Assembly: GCF_900167975.1 (NCBI RefSeq)
Contig: NZ_FUZU01000001.1
Coordinates: 2,401,655 to 2,465,654, forward strand
Source: Ohtaekwangia koreensis
Lineage (GTDB): Bacteria; Bacteroidota; Bacteroidia; Cytophagales; Cyclobacteriaceae
Reading direction: 5' to 3'
Length of the DNA: 64,000 bases
Position numbers and translations under genes: made by a program. Positions 19,281-26,910 of this stretch are shown in pieces (position 1 is the first letter of the stretch; each line of letters opens with the position of its first letter). The notes under the pieces were generated by a model, which ran no database searches, was not told where the DNA came from, and saw only the letters and a program-made list of their open reading frames with translations.

Positions 19281-19628
19281 ATGAGAAGTGAGATGATAGA
19301 GACCCTTCGCCCCGATGGCAAAAAGGGCGTGGCAATGACGGAGGCACATTATAAAATGTTATCGACATATGTACTGTCGGCTCTAGATACCGAGGAGCCC
19401 TTTACATTGAACCGGTTGCTGGAGAAAGTTCTTGAGGATTTTACAGACTCCATCGATAGCGATCTGAGTTGGTATGTGCTCCAGGTGAAACTGGACCTTG
19501 AAGCGCGTGGCTATATCCGCACCATTACACCGGCCTATAAGAAGCGACTCTTTTTGCTAAAGCTAACCCGTCAGGGGCAAAAGCAATTGCAGCAACAAAA
19601 GCTGCTCGCAGATTGGTCATCCGAGTAG
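19281..19628 (+). CDS. DUF6958-like small protein, probable winged helix
   Basis: The 115-residue protein has the layout of the DUF6958 family as I remember it: an N-terminal HP/RPDGKKGVAM strand, a helix-rich middle, the SWYVLQVKLDLEARG motif and a basic C-terminal tail. The fold looks like a winged helix, but no DNA-binding function is shown. It stands 61 bp before the NrtR-type gene on the same strand, so the two may be co-transcribed. The family name should be treated as probable only. Confidence 0.6.
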   Translation: MRSEMIETLRPDGKKGVAMTEAHYKMLSTYVLSALDTEEPFTLNRLLEKVLEDFTDSIDSDLSWYVLQVKLDLEARGYIRTITPAYKKRLFLLKLTRQGQKQLQQQKLLADWSSE

Positions 19629-19689: not shown

Positions 19690-20373
19690 ATGAAGCAATC
19701 CATCAAAGTATCTGTTGATGCTGTCGTTTTTGGATACGATCCTGATGAAGGTATATCTATCCTGCTGATCAAACGAAAGTTTGAACCCTTTCAAAAATTT
19801 TGGGCACTACCGGGTGGCTTGGTAAAAGATGACGAGTCTTTGGAAGAGGCTGTCAGGAGGGAGTTGCAAGAGGAGGCAGGTATCGATGTGAATTACCTCG
19901 AACAACTATACTCTTTTGGCAAGCCTGAACGTGATCCGCGTAATCGTGTTATCTCAATAGCTTATTTCGGTTTGGTTCGTCCTGCAGATTATCAATTGTC
20001 AGCGCAGACCGATGCTGAAGATGTAGCGTGGTTCAGCATCAAGAAACTTCCCCGGCTTGCATTCGATCATAAAGTCATTCTCGACACCGCGATAAAAAGG
20101 CTTCGCGGAAAAATAGCCTATGAACCTATAGGCTTTGAACTGCTCGATAAAAAATTCCCGTTCTCCGACCTCGAAAAATTATACCAGATCCTGCTCGACC
20201 AGGAGATTGATCGTAGAAATTTCAAGAAGAAAATCATAAGCTATGGTTTCCTGGAAGAGCTGGATGAGGTTATACAAAAGAAATCCGGCAGACCAGCGCG
20301 CTTATTTCAATTCAATAAGAAGAAGTATTTCGAACTGAAAGAGAAGGGGTATAACTTCGATATTTTCTTCTGA
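19690..20373 (+). CDS. nrtR: NrtR-type transcriptional regulator (Nudix domain plus winged helix)
   Basis: The 227-residue protein joins an N-terminal Nudix domain (about 5-140) to a C-terminal winged-helix domain (about 150-227), the layout of NrtR regulators of NAD metabolism, where ADP-ribose is the usual effector. The Nudix signature G-x5-E-x7-REL-x-EE-x-G is complete here (within 42-66); many NrtR proteins have lost it, so this one might still hydrolyse a substrate. The gene lies upstream of an NAD salvage operon on the same strand, separated by 212 bp that contain a promoter-embedded palindrome (20446-20468). That context strongly supports the regulator call over a plain Nudix hydrolase. 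Confidence 0.85.
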   Translation: MKQSIKVSVDAVVFGYDPDEGISILLIKRKFEPFQKFWALPGGLVKDDESLEEAVRRELQEEAGIDVNYLEQLYSFGKPERDPRNRVISIAYFGLVRPADYQLSAQTDAEDVAWFSIKKLPRLAFDHKVILDTAIKRLRGKIAYEPIGFELLDKKFPFSDLEKLYQILLDQEIDRRNFKKKIISYGFLEELDEVIQKKSGRPARLFQFNKKKYFELKEKGYNFDIFF

Positions 20374-20404
20374 TAATCAAGTGATTACTTGTTTATTGTA
20401 AAAA

Positions 20405-20414
20405 ATACGCAAAT
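20405..20414. promoter_or_regulatory. Upstream half-site of the NAD-operon operator
   Basis: ATACGCAAAT at 20405-20414 is the exact reverse complement of ATTTGCGTAT at 20446-20455. The arm centres are 41 bp apart, close to four helical turns, so it could be a second contact for a dimer or support looping. Confidence 0.5.
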
Positions 20415-20442
20415 TAACTGTGTGACTTGAAACCCTCGGATT

Positions 20443-20468
20443 TATATTTGCGTATATAATACACAAAT
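20443..20468 (+). promoter_or_regulatory. Promoter -7 element overlapped by a 23-bp palindrome (candidate NrtR operator)
   Basis: TATATTTG at 20443-20450 is a perfect Bacteroidota -7 element; no good TTG lies at the usual distance. Bases 20446-20468 form the near-perfect palindrome ATTTGCGTAT-ATA-ATACACAAAT (one mismatch). Binding there would block transcription start, fitting repression of the nadM operon by the NrtR-type protein encoded just upstream. Confidence 0.6.
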
Positions 20469-20585
20469 GCAGAATTAAAAAATAAAAAAACAGAACACAA
20501 TCAGGGTATAGAATAGTTACCGAATTCATGTAGCCTGAATCAACCAAGCTTTCAATAGAGCAGAATTATCATAACAATATATAGT

Positions 20586-21482
20586 ATGAACAAAATAGGA
20601 GTCATCATTGCCCGATTTCAATCCCCTTACTTACATGAAGGACACAAAAGTATTATTGAATCGGTGAAGCAAAAACACAATACAGTAGTAGTCGTTTTGG
20701 GAGTGTCGCCCGTGCGGGGAAGTAAAAGGAACCCATTGAATTTTCACACCCGTGAACGGATGATCAAGAAAGAATATACAGATATAGTAGTGCTTCCGTT
20801 ATCAGACCATCCGTTGGATAAAAAATGGTCACAAAACCTGGATATACTCTTAGCAGATACATTCCCGGGATCACGCTTCGTACTCTATGGAAGCCGTGAT
20901 AGTTTTAAAAGCTATTACTCAGGAAGCAATGAAACGTTTGAGCTTCCTGAAAACGGAAGTCATAGCGCCACTACTATACGTGAACAGATCAGCGACAGAG
21001 TCATGGACTCTGAAGAATTCCGAACCGGTATAATTTACGCCTACGCCAACACGTACCCGAAGGTATATCCCACCGTTGATATCGCGGTATTTCAGAATGA
21101 AAGAACAGAAATACTCCTCGGCAGAAAAGACATCGATAACAAATGGAGATTGCTCGGAGGATTTTCAGATCCTACAGATGACAGCTTTGAAGCTGCTGCT
21201 GCACGCGAGCTACGCGAGGAATGTGGGGACATTGTAACGACACCCATGGAATACGAGGGATCTTTTCGGGTAGCCGACTGGCGGTATAAAAATGAAACGG
21301 ATAAGATCATTACCACGCTTTTCTCCACAGACTATATTTCAGGTTTCCCTCAAGGTAGCGATGATATAGCGGAAGTAAAATGGTTTACCTTGGACACGGT
21401 GCTAGGCATGATAGATGCCCAAACTATTGCTCCCGAACATATTCGCCACCTGAGCGTTCTTTTGAAAAAGTATAAGGGTTAA
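20586..21482 (+). CDS. nadM: Bifunctional NMN adenylyltransferase / Nudix hydrolase
   Basis: The 298-residue protein has an N-terminal nucleotidyltransferase domain with the IARFQSPYLHEGH motif (the H-x-G-H class) and a SATTIREQI segment that plays the ISSTxxR role, converting NMN and ATP to NAD. The C-terminal Nudix domain (about 165-298) has G-x5-D-x7-REL-x-EE-x-G, with Asp for the first Glu and an intact REL..EE core; in NadM fusions this part splits ADP-ribose to ribose-5-phosphate and AMP. It is first in the operon, 60 bp before nadV, behind the palindrome at 20446-20468. Both halves fit one cycle of NAD salvage. Confidence 0.92.
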   Translation: MNKIGVIIARFQSPYLHEGHKSIIESVKQKHNTVVVVLGVSPVRGSKRNPLNFHTRERMIKKEYTDIVVLPLSDHPLDKKWSQNLDILLADTFPGSRFVLYGSRDSFKSYYSGSNETFELPENGSHSATTIREQISDRVMDSEEFRTGIIYAYANTYPKVYPTVDIAVFQNERTEILLGRKDIDNKWRLLGGFSDPTDDSFEAAAARELREECGDIVTTPMEYEGSFRVADWRYKNETDKIITTLFSTDYISGFPQGSDDIAEVKWFTLDTVLGMIDAQTIAPEHIRHLSVLLKKYKG

Positions 21483-21542
21483 GCCTAAAGCAAAAGGCAA
21501 GCTTAACATCTTAATTGAACATATAATTTTAACAATAGTATT

Positions 21543-22979
21543 ATGAAAACGAACTTACTCTTACTCGCCGATGCCTATAAATACTCCCACTATAAGTTGT
21601 ACTATCCAGGAACAACGAAGATATATTCTTACCTGGAAAGTCGTGGAGGCTTGTTTGATAGCACGGTGTTTTATGGCTTGCAATATTATCTGAAGGAATA
21701 TCTGCAAGGGCAGGCCTTTACGAAAGAAGATATTGATGAAGCGGAAGAATTGATGCAGGGTGTATTTGGAAGGAGTGAAGTTTTTAATCGCGCAAACTTC
21801 GAATATATACTCAAGAAGTACGATGGCAGACTTCCGGTAAAGATCAAAGCGGTTGCCGAAGGCACGGAGGTACCGGTACACAACGCGTTGATGACAATCG
21901 AGAACACAGACCCCAATTGTTTTTGGCTTACCAACTTTCTTGAAACATTGCTAATGCAGGTTTGGTATCCCAGTACGGTGGCAACATTGTCACACGAAAT
22001 CAGGAAAACCGTAGAGCGGTATTTCGAAATGACATCCGACAATGCAGGTGGAATAGATTTTGTCTTGAACGACTTTGGATTCAGAGGCGTGAGCTCCGTA
22101 GAAAGCGCAGCCCTGGGCGGATCGGCACACCTTCTGAATTTTATGGGAAGTGATACCGTAGAAGCATCCAGGTTCCTGAAAAAATACTACCGCGCACAAA
22201 AGGTATATGGCATGTCGGTGCCGGCAACCGAGCACTCGATCATGACGCTGTTGGGACAAGCCGGAGAGCGAAAGATTTTCGATCATGTCCTGAAAGCATA
22301 TCCTGAAGGTATACTTTCATGTGTGTCTGATTCCTACAATATATTTGACGCGGTAGGAACGTTGTGGGGAGGTGAATTCCGGGAAGAAATTCTTAAGCGC
22401 AAGGGTACGTTGGTAATTCGGCCCGACTCCGGAGACCCGGTGAGAACATTGCTCAAGGTATATGATATTCTCTTTGATAAATTCGGATTCACCGTAAACT
22501 CCAAAGGGTATCGCGTATTGCCACCACAGGTACGTGTTATACAAGGCGATGGTATAGATCATGAATCTATACCTGCCATCTACGAAAGTCTGAAGGGGAA
22601 AGGTATATCTGCCGAAAACCTCGTGCTGGGTATGGGCGGTGCACTACTCCAAAAAGTAAATCGCGACACGCAGAAGTTTGCATTGAAGTGTTCATACGCA
22701 GAACTGAATGGCGAGCAAGTGCAGGTACGCAAGGCCCCGGTGGAGATGAACGAAGCAGGTGAGATGGTGAAATCTTTCAAAACATCGAAAGCCGGTAAAC
22801 TCAAACTTGTGCAGGAAGGCGGCATCTATAAAACGATTCGGCAGGAAGAATCTTCGGCTCCTGATTTACTGCAAACGGTTTTTGAAAACGGAAACGTAAC
22901 CAAAGATTATACATTTGAAGAAATTCGTGAACGCGCAAAACAATCCCGCGAAAGCGGAAGTAAAAGGAACAACCCTTGA
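21543..22979 (+). CDS. nadV: Nicotinamide phosphoribosyltransferase (NAMPT/NadV family)
   Basis: The 478-residue protein has the NAMPT length and hallmarks: DAYKYSHYKLYYP near the N-terminus, SYLESRGG, the FGFRGVSSVESAALGG segment carrying the substrate-binding Asp of the family, the ATEHSIM segment with the catalytic-type His, and IRPDSGDP with the phosphate-binding Arg and Asp. It should make NMN from nicotinamide and PRPP, and its neighbours supply PRPP (prs) and consume NMN (nadM). It is 26 bp upstream of prs. Related phage enzymes (Namat of the NARP1 pathway) use ADP-ribose pyrophosphate instead of PRPP; sequence reading alone does not exclude that, but the nadM neighbour favours the classical reaction. 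Confidence 0.93.
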   Translation: MKTNLLLLADAYKYSHYKLYYPGTTKIYSYLESRGGLFDSTVFYGLQYYLKEYLQGQAFTKEDIDEAEELMQGVFGRSEVFNRANFEYILKKYDGRLPVKIKAVAEGTEVPVHNALMTIENTDPNCFWLTNFLETLLMQVWYPSTVATLSHEIRKTVERYFEMTSDNAGGIDFVLNDFGFRGVSSVESAALGGSAHLLNFMGSDTVEASRFLKKYYRAQKVYGMSVPATEHSIMTLLGQAGERKIFDHVLKAYPEGILSCVSDSYNIFDAVGTLWGGEFREEILKRKGTLVIRPDSGDPVRTLLKVYDILFDKFGFTVNSKGYRVLPPQVRVIQGDGIDHESIPAIYESLKGKGISAENLVLGMGGALLQKVNRDTQKFALKCSYAELNGEQVQVRKAPVEMNEAGEMVKSFKTSKAGKLKLVQEGGIYKTIRQEESSAPDLLQTVFENGNVTKDYTFEEIRERAKQSRESGSKRNNP

Positions 22980-23005
22980 CAATAAATTGATTATCATTGC
23001 CGAGT

Positions 23006-23929
23006 ATGGAAAACGCAATAAAAATTTACGCAACATCAACGGCTGTAACGCTGGGAACCAAAATAGCGAAGTACTTGCAGCTGCCGTTACATTCAGTGCA
23101 TACCGAGAAATTTTCAGATGGTGAATTGTTTGTCAGGTTTAACGAAAGTGTACGTGGACAAACTGTTTTCCTGATCAGCAAAGTAAATATGCCGTATGAG
23201 AATTTTTTTGAGATGCTCATGACAGTAGATGCGGCCAGACGTTCTTCAGCTAAAGAGGTGGTGCTTGTGATTCCATACCTGCCGCATAGCCGGCAGGAGC
23301 GAAGGGATGGTCAGCGTACGTCGATCTCATCTCGCATGGTAGCCGATATTATTCAGCTCATGGGTGCTGACAGGATCATAACCCTGGATCTTCATACGAA
23401 TGCTATAGAAGGTTTTTATAAAGTGCCGCTCGATCCGATGTCCTCGCTCAGATTGTTTGTCGATCATATCCGGGATTGCAAGCGCGAGCATCTGTGTTTA
23501 TGCAGTCCTGATTTTGGAGGCATCAAGCGCATCAAACAATATAAGAAACATCTTGATTGTGAAATGGTGGTGATCAACAAGGAGAGATTGAAAGCAAACC
23601 AGGTTGCACACATGGAGATTATCGGTGATGTGAAAGGACGCAACGTAATTATCATTGATGATCTTGTTGATACGGCCGGAACACTTTGCAAAGCTGCAGA
23701 CCTTTTGATGGAGCACGGTGCAGAGTCCGTTTGTGCATACTGTACACATGGTATATTAAGTGGTTCTGCGCTTGCAAACCTGGAGCAATCTAAAATCGAC
23801 AAGCTATATATATCCGATACTGTAGTGGAAGAGTTGAGTCATCCGAAAATAGAGATCGTTAGCTGTGCAGAGTTGTTAGGCAAGGCGATGGAGAATTTAA
23901 TTAATAACAAGAGCTTGAGTCAGATATGA
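23006..23929 (+). CDS. prs: Ribose-phosphate pyrophosphokinase-like protein (divergent Prs)
   Basis: The 307-residue protein belongs to the PRPP synthetase family: FSDGELFVRF near 35, a flexible-loop segment LPHSRQERRDG (housekeeping enzymes usually read YARQDRK), LDLHTNAIEGF, SPDFGGIKR and the PRPP loop IIDDLVDTAGT (usually DDMIDTGGT). Several changes at these motifs mark it as a paralogue specialised for this operon. I chose the ATG at 23006; a TTG at 22997 is less likely. It overlaps the next gene by 4 bp (ATGA). It should provide PRPP for NadV, recycling ribose-5-phosphate; an ADP-ribose-phosphorylating role, as in phage Adps, is an alternative. Confidence 0.88.
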   Translation: MENAIKIYATSTAVTLGTKIAKYLQLPLHSVHTEKFSDGELFVRFNESVRGQTVFLISKVNMPYENFFEMLMTVDAARRSSAKEVVLVIPYLPHSRQERRDGQRTSISSRMVADIIQLMGADRIITLDLHTNAIEGFYKVPLDPMSSLRLFVDHIRDCKREHLCLCSPDFGGIKRIKQYKKHLDCEMVVINKERLKANQVAHMEIIGDVKGRNVIIIDDLVDTAGTLCKAADLLMEHGAESVCAYCTHGILSGSALANLEQSKIDKLYISDTVVEELSHPKIEIVSCAELLGKAMENLINNKSLSQI

Positions 23930-24360
23930 TAACGCGCGCTATAGAGAATTGCTTTCGCAATGTGCGGGAGAAGAATTGGGATAAAACCTATTGGGCTTTT
24001 GATATTCACGGAACCATCCTGAAACCAAATTACCAGGCCAATGCTATATCTACTGAATTTTATCCGTTGGCCAAAGAGGTAATGCAAATGCTGAGCAAAC
24101 GTACCGACATCGTCAGGATACTATATACCTGCTCTTATCCCCATGAGATTGAACAGTATATTGAATACTTTGCCAAGCATGGTATACATTTCGATCATAT
24201 CAATAAAAACCCCGAAGTAGCGTGTGGTGCTTATGGATATTACGAAGATAAGTTTTACTTCAATGTGCTTCTGGACGACAAAGCAGGATTTGATGGGGAG
24301 ACCGACTGGACGGCTATAAAAAATCTCCTTCATAAAAATGAAGCTGTACATGAAGTTTAA
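23926..24360 (+). CDS. Small HAD-like phosphatase family protein
   Basis: The 144-residue protein contains a HAD-like motif I, FDIHGT, with nucleophile Asp26; the usual second Asp (D-x-D) is His28. A motif II-like Thr/Ser lies in YTCSYP and a metal-binding acid pair in LLDDKAGFD (about 117-123). Such a small size leaves no cap domain. With the general acid replaced by His, it may be a phosphatase with altered chemistry, or a non-catalytic member. It overlaps prs by 4 bp at its start and the ADP-ribosylglycohydrolase gene at its end, so it is certainly in the operon. A nucleotide or sugar phosphate from the NAD cycle is a reasonable but unproven substrate. Confidence 0.7.
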   Translation: MITRAIENCFRNVREKNWDKTYWAFDIHGTILKPNYQANAISTEFYPLAKEVMQMLSKRTDIVRILYTCSYPHEIEQYIEYFAKHGIHFDHINKNPEVACGAYGYYEDKFYFNVLLDDKAGFDGETDWTAIKNLLHKNEAVHEV

Positions 24361-25324
24361 GATTGATAATATTCAGGGATGCTTCACCGGACTGGCGATA
24401 GGGGATGCGTTGGGAGTTCCTGTTGAATTCAAGAGTCGCGAATCGTTGCGACTTCGTCCGGTAAACGACATGATCGGGTATGGTGTATGGGAGCAACCCG
24501 CAGGCACATGGTCTGACGATAGCGCGCTTGCATTTTGTCTGGCGCAATCATTATTGGACGGATACGACCTGAAAGATATAGCGCGTAAATCAGCACAGTG
24601 GTTACAACAAGGTTATTGGAGTGCACATGGTGAAGTGTTTGATGTAGGCAACGCAACCCGAAGTGCTTTAAGAAGAATTCTTGATGGAGAGGATCCCCTA
24701 TATTCAGGAGAGAATGATGAGCGGAGTAATGGCAACGGCTCTTTAATGAAAATCGCCCCGGCAGCGTTGTTTTTCTTTGACAGAAGTGATGAAGATATAT
24801 TCAAGTATATAAAGGAGATTTCTTCCATCACGCACGCACATTTCCGTTCCGTTTTCGGATGCTTTATTTTCTCAATATATATAGCGGAACTCTTCAAAGG
24901 GCAAGAGAAAGAAGCAGCATTGGAATCGACACGTATGCGCGTTAGTGAGTTTGCCAGAAAACGAGATTTCAACATACATGAAGTAGGACTTTTTAGCAGG
25001 ATACTGGATGGTTCGCTACAAGCATTGCCGGAACACGCTATATATTCTGGCGGGTATATAATTCATACACTGGAGGCCAGCATCTGGTGCTTGTTGAATA
25101 CGGATAATTATAAAGATGCCGTATTAAAAGCCGTTAACCTGGGCGAAGATACGGACACCACTGCGTGTGTAACCGGAGCACTGGCAGGACTTTATTATGG
25201 CAAGAGCAACATTCCAATGCATTGGTTCGAATTGCTCGCGCGCAAGCACGATATTATTAATCTTTCAAACTCTTTTCAAGATTGCCTCAAGAAGAAGATA
25301 TTCGCACAAACTATTCGCGAATGA
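24350..25324 (+). CDS. ADP-ribosylglycohydrolase family protein (DraG-like)
   Basis: The protein of about 324 residues has the complete DraG signature set: GLAIGDALGVPVEF near the N-terminus, TWSDDSALA with the metal-binding Asp pair, and GEDTDTTACVTGALAG at the C-terminal end, which holds the second metal site. The family removes ADP-ribose from proteins, nucleic acids or small molecules using two Mg ions. I chose the ATG at 24350; one at 24338 is also in frame, and both overlap the HAD gene. In this operon it would feed ADP-ribose to the Nudix half of NadM. No ADP-ribosyltransferase gene is seen in the window. Confidence 0.9.
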   Translation: MKFKIDNIQGCFTGLAIGDALGVPVEFKSRESLRLRPVNDMIGYGVWEQPAGTWSDDSALAFCLAQSLLDGYDLKDIARKSAQWLQQGYWSAHGEVFDVGNATRSALRRILDGEDPLYSGENDERSNGNGSLMKIAPAALFFFDRSDEDIFKYIKEISSITHAHFRSVFGCFIFSIYIAELFKGQEKEAALESTRMRVSEFARKRDFNIHEVGLFSRILDGSLQALPEHAIYSGGYIIHTLEASIWCLLNTDNYKDAVLKAVNLGEDTDTTACVTGALAGLYYGKSNIPMHWFELLARKHDIINLSNSFQDCLKKKIFAQTIRE

Positions 25325-26910
25325 TCCTTTTATTTCCCGGCCGGCATCAGCTCCTGACAAATTTTCAATTTCAGTATATAGCGGATCTCCTGAGTAAAGG
25401 CGAACCAACAAAAGACATTGATGGTAACATCGTGCAAACGTCTGGTGTCATCGATGCCTTGGTTTTTGCGGTGACATCAGCCAATCATAGCAATACCCGG
25501 AGAAACCCTTTGCCATTTTACTTGCGGGCGCTGGCCATTCAGGAATTTGCAGACCGGTTCCATATACCTGCCTATATATATGGAATTGATGACGTTGGCA
25601 ACCTGGGAAGTTTTGCAAGCTATACCATTAAACGAATTCGTCATGAAAGCGAAGGGATGTTTGACCTGACACCTGCCAATACGTTGGTACTTTGCTCTAC
25701 GCCCGTACTGGAGATGTATAAAACCCTTGGCTTCACAATTCTTCCGGCTGAGTTAACGGATCGTACTACCTGGAAACATAGCACGCGTTTGCCGTGGGAT
25801 ATAGTCGAAACTATAGCAGGCGATGATCGTTGGGAGACGAACCTGGAAGTTCATCAGTATATGCATTCATCTTCTTTTGATGTCTGGAAAAAATACAAGC
25901 TCGCTTCCAAAGTGCAGCTTCTTTTCAAAGATAGAATGATCAGCGAAGATGGCGACATTACAGGCACGCGCGATTACAACACGTACGTACGACAGATGGA
26001 TACCATTGCCGAACTGAAATATACTGAGACCGCGTCCTATATTCGTCCCGGAAGGATAGGAGATATAGGCTGTGCCGTGGGTTCATGGATAAAACTTGCC
26101 TGCCGGGATGAGCGTCTTCGAGAATCCGATTTCTATGGTATAGAAGTAGCGCGTCATCTTTTTGATATCTGTCAGCAGCGTAAACACAATGGAGAATTTA
26201 AAAACCCATTCGTGTTCTTTTCACAACGCAATGCTGTTACGGGCCTGGTCTTCGATAAAGAATCAATGAACACCATTCATACCTCATCGCTCACACATGA
26301 GATTGAATCATACGGGAGTCGTCAGGACCTGTTGGCGTTTATTAAAAACCGTTTCGAGGAACTAACGCATGGAGGCGTCTGGATAAACCGTGATGTCGTT
26401 GGTCCGGAAAACAAATATACCCGTGTGCTGATGCACCTTGCTAAAAACGATGGTATACATTCGGATGTTGACAAAACGTTTTCTACCCGCGAAGAACTTG
26501 CACATCATCTAAACGGACTTTCTACCTATGGACGATTTCTCCGCTTTGCAAAAGATTTTCGAAAGCACGAAGGATATACACTGGAATATAGGATGCGTGA
26601 ACTTGAAGGCAAAGAACTCGTTGAGCTTTCATTAAGCGATGCCTGCGAGTTTATGAGTCGTAAAGACTATACCGACAACTGGGAAAGTGAAATGCATGAA
26701 ACCTTCACATTCTGGAGCATTGAAGAATGGAAAGGTGAACTTGAAAAAGCAGGATTTATAGTACGCCCCGAATCACAAGCCTATACCAATGCATGGATTG
26801 TAGACAACAGGCTGGTTGGTAAAGCAGAATTGTTTGAAGAGGAGAGTGGTGCGTTGAAAAGACTTCCGTACCCGGTAACGAATATGATTGTTATCGCTGA
26901 AAAGCAATGA
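25321..26910 (+). CDS. Fusion: nucleotidyltransferase-like domain plus SAM methyltransferase domain
   Basis: The 529-residue protein starts at an ATG that shares ATGA with the DraG-type stop. Residues 1-180 resemble an NMN-adenylyltransferase fold: FPGRHQLLTNFQ aligns with the GRFQPxHxGH region, and RRNPLPFYLRA with the RNP segment that NadM also has (KRNPLNF). The catalytic H-x-G-H is replaced by T-N-F-Q, so classical transfer is doubtful. Residues about 240-529 resemble a class I SAM methyltransferase, with motif I IGDIGCAVGSW and an acidic strand end YGIEVARH. It ends the NAD operon. I know of no described function. It might sense a nucleotide with one half and methylate with the other; this is speculation. 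Confidence 0.65.
   Translation: MILLFPGRHQLLTNFQFQYIADLLSKGEPTKDIDGNIVQTSGVIDALVFAVTSANHSNTRRNPLPFYLRALAIQEFADRFHIPAYIYGIDDVGNLGSFASYTIKRIRHESEGMFDLTPANTLVLCSTPVLEMYKTLGFTILPAELTDRTTWKHSTRLPWDIVETIAGDDRWETNLEVHQYMHSSSFDVWKKYKLASKVQLLFKDRMISEDGDITGTRDYNTYVRQMDTIAELKYTETASYIRPGRIGDIGCAVGSWIKLACRDERLRESDFYGIEVARHLFDICQQRKHNGEFKNPFVFFSQRNAVTGLVFDKESMNTIHTSSLTHEIESYGSRQDLLAFIKNRFEELTHGGVWINRDVVGPENKYTRVLMHLAKNDGIHSDVDKTFSTREELAHHLNGLSTYGRFLRFAKDFRKHEGYTLEYRMRELEGKELVELSLSDACEFMSRKDYTDNWESEMHETFTFWSIEEWKGELEKAGFIVRPESQAYTNAWIVDNRLVGKAELFEEESGALKRLPYPVTNMIVIAEKQ

Follow-up and report, generated by a model that had tools for sequence, protein, structure and literature searches.

A predicted NrtR-controlled NAD+-rebuilding operon in Ohtaekwangia koreensis that includes a HAD-fold protein and a methyltransferase fusion

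Seven genes, all on the + strand, run from nrtR at position 19690 to the end of a fusion gene at 26910 in a 64,000-nucleotide stretch (the window) of the 7.24-Mb genome of Ohtaekwangia koreensis (contig NZ_FUZU01000001.1, positions 2,401,655 to 2,465,654). We consider that this locus is probably an operon for rebuilding NAD+ that is derepressed through NrtR. This reading is based on gene content, packing, a conserved operator, co-occurrence, predicted folds, and motifs that have been kept or lost. From these we infer the enzyme activities, the direction of flow, and the substrates of the HAD-fold and fusion proteins.

In the proposed scheme, breakdown of NAD+ would cause ADP-ribose to accumulate, and NrtR would then release the two operators between nrtR and nadM, switching on six genes. 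The ADP-ribosylglycohydrolase (ARG) would free ADP-ribose from modified macromolecules, and the Nudix domain of NadM would convert ADP-ribose to AMP and ribose-5-phosphate. A dedicated Prs would supply phosphoribosyl pyrophosphate (PRPP), which NadV would combine with nicotinamide to give nicotinamide mononucleotide (NMN), and the adenylyltransferase domain of NadM would convert NMN to NAD+. The HAD protein would be a small phosphatase-fold helper, also found in viral NAD cassettes. The fusion protein would be a methyltransferase dependent on S-adenosylmethionine (SAM), whose N domain, a former NMN adenylyltransferase (NMNAT), would now only bind a pyridine or ADP-ribose nucleotide, as substrate or as control ligand.

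Results

Behind nrtR (19690..20373), the nadM, nadV, prs, HAD, ARG, and fusion genes form a packed, same-strand series. The gaps are 212 bp for nrtR-nadM, 60 bp for nadM-nadV, and 17 bp for nadV-prs; the overlaps are 4 bp for prs/HAD, 11 or 23 bp for HAD/ARG, depending on the ARG start codon, and 4 bp for ARG/fusion. The initial annotation had listed these seven genes as one packed set, with overlaps of 4–11 bp among the last four. All seven are present and consecutive on the + strand, and the overlaps agree, apart from the 23 bp given by the other ARG start. The packing itself stands, but it is rather that of six genes plus nrtR, set off by a gap with two operators. Because of that gap, nrtR may be transcribed separately. 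Since the next gene downstream, a ferritin gene, lies on the other strand, the operon probably ends after the fusion gene.

NrtR matches the NrtR_WHD model (1.6e-21) and has a Nudix domain. It reaches 136 bits with the NCBIfam NtrR model, short of the cut-off of 400. The protein has a match to AraR_C as well; in Bacteroides, the AraR branch of the NrtR family responds to L-arabinose (PMC4666351). The combination of a Nudix domain, an NrtR winged helix, and a palindromic site before NAD genes places the protein with the NrtRs of NAD metabolism. The Nudix box is described as impaired in those regulators (PMC4666351). By the box consensus quoted in the same paper, that of the window protein is intact (GGLVKDDESLEEAVRRELQEEAGI), and this NrtR may both sense and hydrolyse ADP-ribose.

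The operator was found by an exact-dyad search of nadM upstream regions, in which single dyads occurred in up to 14 of 53 regions, compared with 1 in shuffles. The consensus is TTTGYGTA-N5-TACRCAAA, which was then scored over 16 fixed positions. Sites scoring at least 14/16 occur in 49 of the 53 nadM upstream regions, in 0 of 52 NadV upstream regions, and in 0 of 249 regions shuffled base by base. The window has two such sites 54 bp apart, neither assigned a strand, at 20393..20413 (TTATTGTAAAAAATACGCAAA, 14/16) and 20447..20467 (TTTGCGTATATAATACACAAA, 16/16); the second overlaps a TAnnTTTG sequence. Across the window and 80 loci with relatives of the fusion gene (1.59 Mb; loci are numbered L and genomes G), there are 122 sites at this threshold, with 95 before nadM, 7 before nrtR, 3 before the fusion gene, 2 before Prs/Adps, and 15 elsewhere (the same count with some stretches doubled gave 125 sites in 1.66 Mb). 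Neighbouring sites form 46 pairs spaced 50–54 bp. The TAnnTTTG sequence, which we take to be the -7 element of Bacteroidota promoters, overlaps the operator in 32 of 65 near-perfect sites, where a rough estimate of chance gives about 6.5. We suggest that NrtR binds this operator and that ADP-ribose would be its inducer, by analogy with other NrtRs.

The exact form of the operator occurs once in the O. koreensis genome, in the nrtR-nadM gap. Genomic sites with 1–2 mismatches were rejected as a further regulon, because a reversed control gave 18 per strand and the true pattern 8. No flanking NAD gene was recognised at the two 1-mismatch sites, whose neighbouring reading frames had no family search. 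In single relatives, the operator stands before other genes. In L010, a 16/16 site lies 15 bp before the start of the HAD gene of a HAD-fusion pair, and nadM is elsewhere in that genome with operators of its own. The operator lies directly before the fusion gene in L054, before Adps in L032 and L052, and before a pair of SPFH and NAD-kinase-like genes in L043.

By which route would NAD+ be rebuilt? NadV (21543..22979) matches PRK09198 over its full length with 603 bits (cut-off 405), and it aligns over nearly its whole length with structures of Nampt, the PRPP-using nicotinamide phosphoribosyltransferase. Namat, the enzyme of the NARP1 pathway that uses ADP-ribose pyrophosphate, is set apart from Nampt by the clamp-helix motif GSX-X-X-TRD (PMC12774641). 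The window NadV has GGALLQKVNRD at that site. Among the 55 NadV-like genes in fusion loci, 51 have the GGALLQ form, 3 (L031, L032, L052) have the Namat form, GS[YF]TYQYNTRD, and 1 has no match. The window NadV is thus predicted to make NMN from nicotinamide and PRPP. Because its signature is that of Nampt and not Namat, NAD+ would be rebuilt through ribose-5-phosphate, PRPP, and NMN, which fits the PRPP route drawn in the initial annotation.

Prs (22997..23929, with a TTG start and an ATG at 23006) belongs to the canonical PRPP synthetase family, with 352 bits against PRK01259 (cut-off 297) and matches to Prs structures in the PDB. It does not have the character of the NARP1 kinase Adps; Adps-like genes are 27% identical to it. 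This is the second of two Prs copies in the genome, and its 42% identity to the other makes the earlier description of it as divergent a fair one. NadM (20586..21482) matches a Nudix model at 3.3e-14 and CTP_transf_like at 9.6e-4 (19.8 bits, just under the cut-off of 21). When the window protein was aligned with those of 21 of the 52 loci that have NadM, H17, G19, H20, R207, E208, E211, and E212 were invariant in 22/22. Both the HxGH motif (HEGH) and the Nudix REUXEE motif, as REL-EE, are therefore retained, in agreement with the proposed pairing of NMN adenylyltransferase and Nudix hydrolase. The genome has one NadM match and also a NadD above its cut-off, so the operon would supplement the standard NAD supply. 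ARG (24338 or 24350..25324) is a member of the DraG/ARH superfamily (PF03747, 1.3e-81), and with it the operon could recover NAD from ADP-ribosylation products. Each step of the cycle that had been named thus has a matching family.

The fusion gene (25321..26910) encodes an N domain (about residues 1–165), a SAM methyltransferase domain (about 205–380), and a C-terminal part. A longer reading frame from 25282 is probably not the gene, as three homologues and, besides them, the aligned family sequences start at or near the Met of 25321. The window protein stays below the cut-off of every Pfam and NCBIfam model, and its methyltransferase matches are weak. Across 59 members of the family, at E <=0.1, Methyltransf_23 matches 59, the archaeal NMNAT models TIGR01527 and PRK01153 match 10 and 17, and a tRNA methyltransferase model matches 23 (best 2.7e-4). 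The top PDB sequence match of the fusion is MJ0541 (1f9a, E 0.0011), aligned in the RNP motif region; this entry was deposited as a hypothetical protein and is an NMNAT. A profile comparison of the fusion with NadM gave 73% probability over 61 columns only, which by itself carries little weight, and an hmmsearch with the N domain against the loci matched little beyond the RNP motif.

An AlphaFold2 model built from the 59 sequences has a mean predicted local distance difference test score of 91 and a predicted TM-score of 0.75. In this model, the N domain resembles the NMNAT of M. thermoautotrophicum (Foldseek TM 0.79 by target length, E 1.5e-8), and class I methyltransferases make up most of the best 50 Foldseek matches. 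The class I SAM-binding features are present, with a DIGCAVGS loop and invariant D248, G250, and E275. The N domain has GRHxxx[TS]x[FY]Q in 59/59 sequences and HxG[HN] in 0/59 within the first 60 residues; R8, H9, Q16, H56, R61, N62, and R69 are invariant and T13 nearly so. We presume, from the gapless spacing of GR to the motif in archaeal NMNATs, that TxFQ takes the place of HxGH; the site lies outside the alignments obtained. The C-terminal part has an invariant KDY..NW.SE..E pattern, with K448, D449, Y450, N453, W454, S456, and E457 conserved. The strong conservation of both halves suggests that the fusion is a working enzyme and not a relic. It is predicted to be a methyltransferase that binds a pyridine nucleotide.

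A scan of the genomes of 84,980 species gave 140 relatives of the fusion, and 80 loci were kept, with neighbours taken within 8 kb. The closest relatives are from Bacteroidota, many from Chitinophaga, Niastella, and Cytophagales. The neighbours are nrtR in 64 loci, nadM in 52, nadV/Namat in 55 (NARP1 genes in 3 of these), prs-like genes in 16, HAD in 14, and ARG in 13; counted by 46 clusters at 75% identity, the numbers are 31, 21, 24, 12, 11, and 7. Thus, the idea that homologues of the fusion would lie beside the NAD genes holds for nrtR, nadM, and nadV and fails for prs-like genes and ARG, which are commoner in a few clades. Since so few fusion loci have it nearby, ARG appears to be an add-on of some clades. 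Twelve of the 16 prs-like neighbours are 72–99% identical to the window Prs, three are Adps-like at 27%, and one is at 25%. In 395 genomes of the class, the fusion occurs in 4, all of them among the 7 with full-length NadM (Fisher 3.5e-8, uncorrected for kinship). NadM had any match in 36 of the 395; 29 were partial, nearly all of the Nudix half, and were set aside. Two of the four fusion-bearing genomes (G158, G380) seem also to be in the 80-locus set (L016, L036). For G380, we dropped the reading that NadM and fusion/nrtR are separate loci, as both lie a few kb from contig ends and an assembly gap may divide them. The G078 nadM lies in the middle of a contig, and the fusion gene there is 14.6 kb from the end of its contig.

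The NAD genes beside the fusion are different in archaea. A Nanoarchaeota locus (L079) has NadA by Pfam, with NAD-kinase-like and NadE-like genes recognised by eye, and a Woesearchaeota locus (L051) has an NMNAT-like gene (TIGR01527 2.3e-20, no Pfam match) and a NadE-like gene, again by eye. Because the NAD linkage spans the Nampt/NadM, NARP1, and NadA/NadE-like routes, a salvage intermediate is a less likely ligand of the fusion than NAD(P) or ADP-ribose. The fusion had no match in phages, plasmids, or IMG/VR, where the scan was based on two short peptides.

The HAD-fold gene (23926..24360) matches the BT0820-like model with 35 bits, far under the cut-off of 165, and the phage family phrog_1238 at 2e-13. 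That family is described as phosphoheptose isomerase; the HAD assignment is supported by NCBIfam and motifs rather than by this description. The protein is a DxH variant (FDIHGT), with D26 and His28 invariant in 11 aligned sequences. Relatives were found by tblastn in 100 of 50,697 phage records. Three of seven annotated neighbourhoods viewed are NAD-linked. In crAss-like cr111_1 (originally found through Namat, hence not an unbiased pick) and cr126_1, HAD lies between Namat and Adps, and in Enterococcus phage Porthos its neighbours are annotated as NMN transporters and an NMN adenylyltransferase. The neighbourhoods in Milchi, a Porphyromonas phage, and Eowyn are not NAD-linked, and in a Listeria phage there is a DUF1768 gene, of NADAR type, with nothing further related to NAD.

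Viral relatives of the window-type HAD in IMG/VR (80 loci kept of 136, neighbours within about 5 kb) lie near NadV, Prs, or NadM in 48/80, all of the Nampt/Prs type by signature or best score. DxH is found in 79/80 of these relatives, and one was not matched. Among 20 crAss-type HAD loci in IMG/VR, 13 contain both Namat and Adps, and the other 7 contain neither; DxD is present in 20/20, though one of the two search peptides demands it. The HAD type thus tracks the pathway type, DxH with Nampt/Prs loci and DxD with Namat/Adps loci. One 247-kb viral contig (L190, 1605-7182) has nadM-nadV-prs-HAD in the order of the window, with a 1-bp prs/HAD overlap, and also has its own nrtR and, by eye, a deoxyribosyltransferase-like gene; this exact adjacency is found in 1/80 viral loci, and mostly other genes intervene. 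Both HAD and the fusion, which had been proposed to extend or control the cycle, therefore recur in NAD loci elsewhere, by neighbourhood, co-occurrence, and, in some relatives, the operator.

Several further arrangements were seen. NARP1-type genes (Adps and Namat) lie beside nrtR and the fusion gene in three Bacteroidota contigs (L031 6801-9174, L032 6413-9152, L052 12375-15158), and the L031 Namat is 55.7% identical to that of SPbetaL1. In crAss-like phages L124 (4004-6699) and L133 (2452-6166), Namat, HAD, and Adps are overlapping genes. An SPFH gene follows Namat-HAD-Adps in cr126_1, echoing the bacterial fusion loci, where an SPFH/band-7 gene and an NAD-kinase-like gene (weak Pfam match, 0.0096) recur near nrtR and the fusion (L016, L043, L075, and others; clusters of 7 and 8 loci). 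Two archaeal contigs from metagenome-assembled genomes (L079, L083) each have, besides the fusion, two Nudix genes that resemble NrtR in BLAST and an NAD-kinase-like gene. Other neighbours of the fusion are KptA, microbial-type PARG, and DUF4291. In the window, a DUF6958 gene (19281-19628) lies directly upstream of nrtR, as it does in five relatives (L005, L006, L007, L009, L012). A window-wide search gave no RNA families or tRNAs.

Discussion

Some observations weigh against reading the locus as a single NAD+-rebuilding operon. The Nudix box of NadM is one residue longer than the canonical G-x5-E-x7-R spacing, and, when up to 2 mismatches are allowed, the genome has no more matches to the operator pattern than to its reversed control. 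Where nrtR and the fusion gene are divergent, sites before the fusion reach 13/16 at most (in L031 and L032), and the G078 fusion locus has no operator of at least 13/16. The scarcity of ARG near the fusion (13/80 loci, 7/46 clusters) belongs here as well. In the HAD protein, D26 is kept and His28 replaces the second Asp of DxD, so its phosphatase activity is unsure; 32/80 viral relatives of this type have no NadV, Prs, or NadM nearby. Finally, 16/80 fusion loci, four of them shorter than 10 kb, have no nrtR, nadM, or nadV nearby. Full-length NadM is found elsewhere in 4 of those 16 genomes and NadV in 5, and neither was found in 11/16, which are drafts or metagenome-assembled genomes of unstated completeness. 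Because of these 11, the fusion seems not to need the NAD cycle.

The last observation favours the view that the fusion is present through operon accretion only, methylating an unrelated RNA or protein and merely responding to the NAD state, and the matches of 23/59 members to a tRNA methyltransferase model point the same way. However, the NAD linkage recurs in Bacteroidota, a spirochaete (L075), and Woesearchaeota and Nanoarchaeota contigs, and in the archaea it involves different NAD genes, NadA by Pfam and genes resembling NadE and NAD kinase that were recognised by eye or from a weak match. We regard accretion as possible, although on balance somewhat unlikely. Could the N domain instead still be active as an altered adenylyltransferase, using TxFQ in place of HxGH to make NAD or an analogue, with the methyltransferase catalysing a second step? 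The predicted NMNAT fold, the invariant GRHxxx[TS]x[FY]Q motif, and the conservation of T13 and the seven invariant N-domain residues would be explained. The second His of HxGH is central to catalysis in this superfamily, however, and the absence of HxG[HN] from the start of all 59 sequences makes this quite improbable. Our own tentative proposal is that bacteria and DPANN archaea have in the fusion a so far undescribed NAD-metabolic enzyme, in which the N domain no longer transfers adenylyl groups but holds NAD(P), NMN, or ADP-ribose for the methyltransferase to methylate. The product would be a methylated pyridine nucleotide, in a protected, repaired, or signalling form, switched on by NrtR under NAD loss. 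In this full form, we consider it rather unlikely.

The whole locus could also serve host defence or repair against foreign ADP-ribosylation, NAD salvage being a by-product. A predicted class of ARG-centred systems (PMC9503650) has ARG, a Nudix-HTH regulator, and a phosphatase-fold gene among its features, and KptA, microbial-type PARG, and DUF4291 occur near relatives. Most relatives, however, lack ARG and retain nadM and nadV. Furthermore, no gene for a chaperone, an effector nuclease, or a Cys-phosphatase was found beside ARG among the ten window genes searched, and PADLOC gave only the Nudix domain of NrtR (PDC-S07, 2.8e-11) and two weak matches to Prs; a chaperone or effector accompanies ARG 'often' in that class and so is not strictly defining (PMC9503650). 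We think a defence role unlikely. A chromosomal NARP1, in which Prs would really be Adps and NadV really Namat, making NAD+ from whole ADP-ribose in two steps, is very improbable. Relatives of Adps and Namat carry the annotations pyrophosphokinase and phosphoribosyltransferase, bacterial NARP1 exists (PMC12774641), and NARP1-type genes adjoin nrtR and the fusion in L031, L032, and L052. But the window NadV lacks the Namat clamp signature, on which ground this identity was rejected, Prs passes the canonical model with 352 bits, and NadM would be superfluous. An NrtR-controlled operon that rebuilds NAD+ through PRPP and NMN is thus the reading we prefer.

NAD+ is contested between cells and phages. 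The NARP1 kit consists of two enzymes (PMC12774641), and two further parts are now seen to have recurrent genetic linkage to NAD-rebuilding genes: a HAD-fold protein, as the DxH form with Nampt/NadM/Prs genes and the DxD form with NARP1 genes, and a fusion of a methyltransferase with a former NMNAT. With the operator defined, the full regulon could be listed directly across Bacteroidota. Methylation of a pyridine nucleotide by the fusion, if it occurs, would add a chemical step new to NAD metabolism. Among the titles and abstract openings listed in a search of mostly open-access literature, there was no NAD-salvage methyltransferase fusion and no HAD partner of Namat. The following are apparently new, in that we have not seen them in print: the fusion family, its inclusion with HAD in an operator-defined set, the way HAD type and pathway type vary together, and the presence in Bacteroidota of NARP1-type genes behind this operator. 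Parts of this may have been mentioned in earlier surveys of NAD-using gene neighbourhoods.

How does the locus compare with known systems? The nrtR-nadM-nadV core is already known from the NrtR literature. As in the NrtR regulons of NAD metabolism, a Nudix-HTH regulator stands beside salvage genes with a palindromic operator before nadM; in contrast, the Nudix box is intact here and impaired there (PMC4666351), and in single relatives the operator found here also stands before HAD-fusion, fusion, NARP1, or SPFH/NAD-kinase-like genes. NARP1, already published for bacteria, likewise rebuilds NAD+ from ADP-ribose and nicotinamide, with Adps and Namat (PMC12774641), and genes of its type occupy the same nrtR-fusion context in three relatives, whereas the window has canonical Prs, Nampt, and NadM, without the clamp signature. 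The ARG-centred systems (PMC9503650) share ARG, the Nudix-HTH regulator, and a phosphatase-fold gene with the window, in which none of their chaperone, effector nuclease, or rhodanese-phosphatase genes was seen and NAD synthesis genes stand instead. The phage salvage pathway (PMC9503650) also pairs NadV with NadM, and L190 has the gene order of the window; the window locus is, by contrast, chromosomal, operator-controlled, and extended by ARG and the fusion. That phage pathway has been given the name NARP2 (PMC12028318). The fusion N domain shares its predicted fold with the archaeal-type NMNATs (1m8j, 1ej2, 1f9a), and the RNP motif region with 1f9a. NARP2 is reportedly made up of NadV and NadM. 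Unlike the archaeal enzymes, the fusion would have TxFQ in place of HxGH, and it has a methyltransferase attached.

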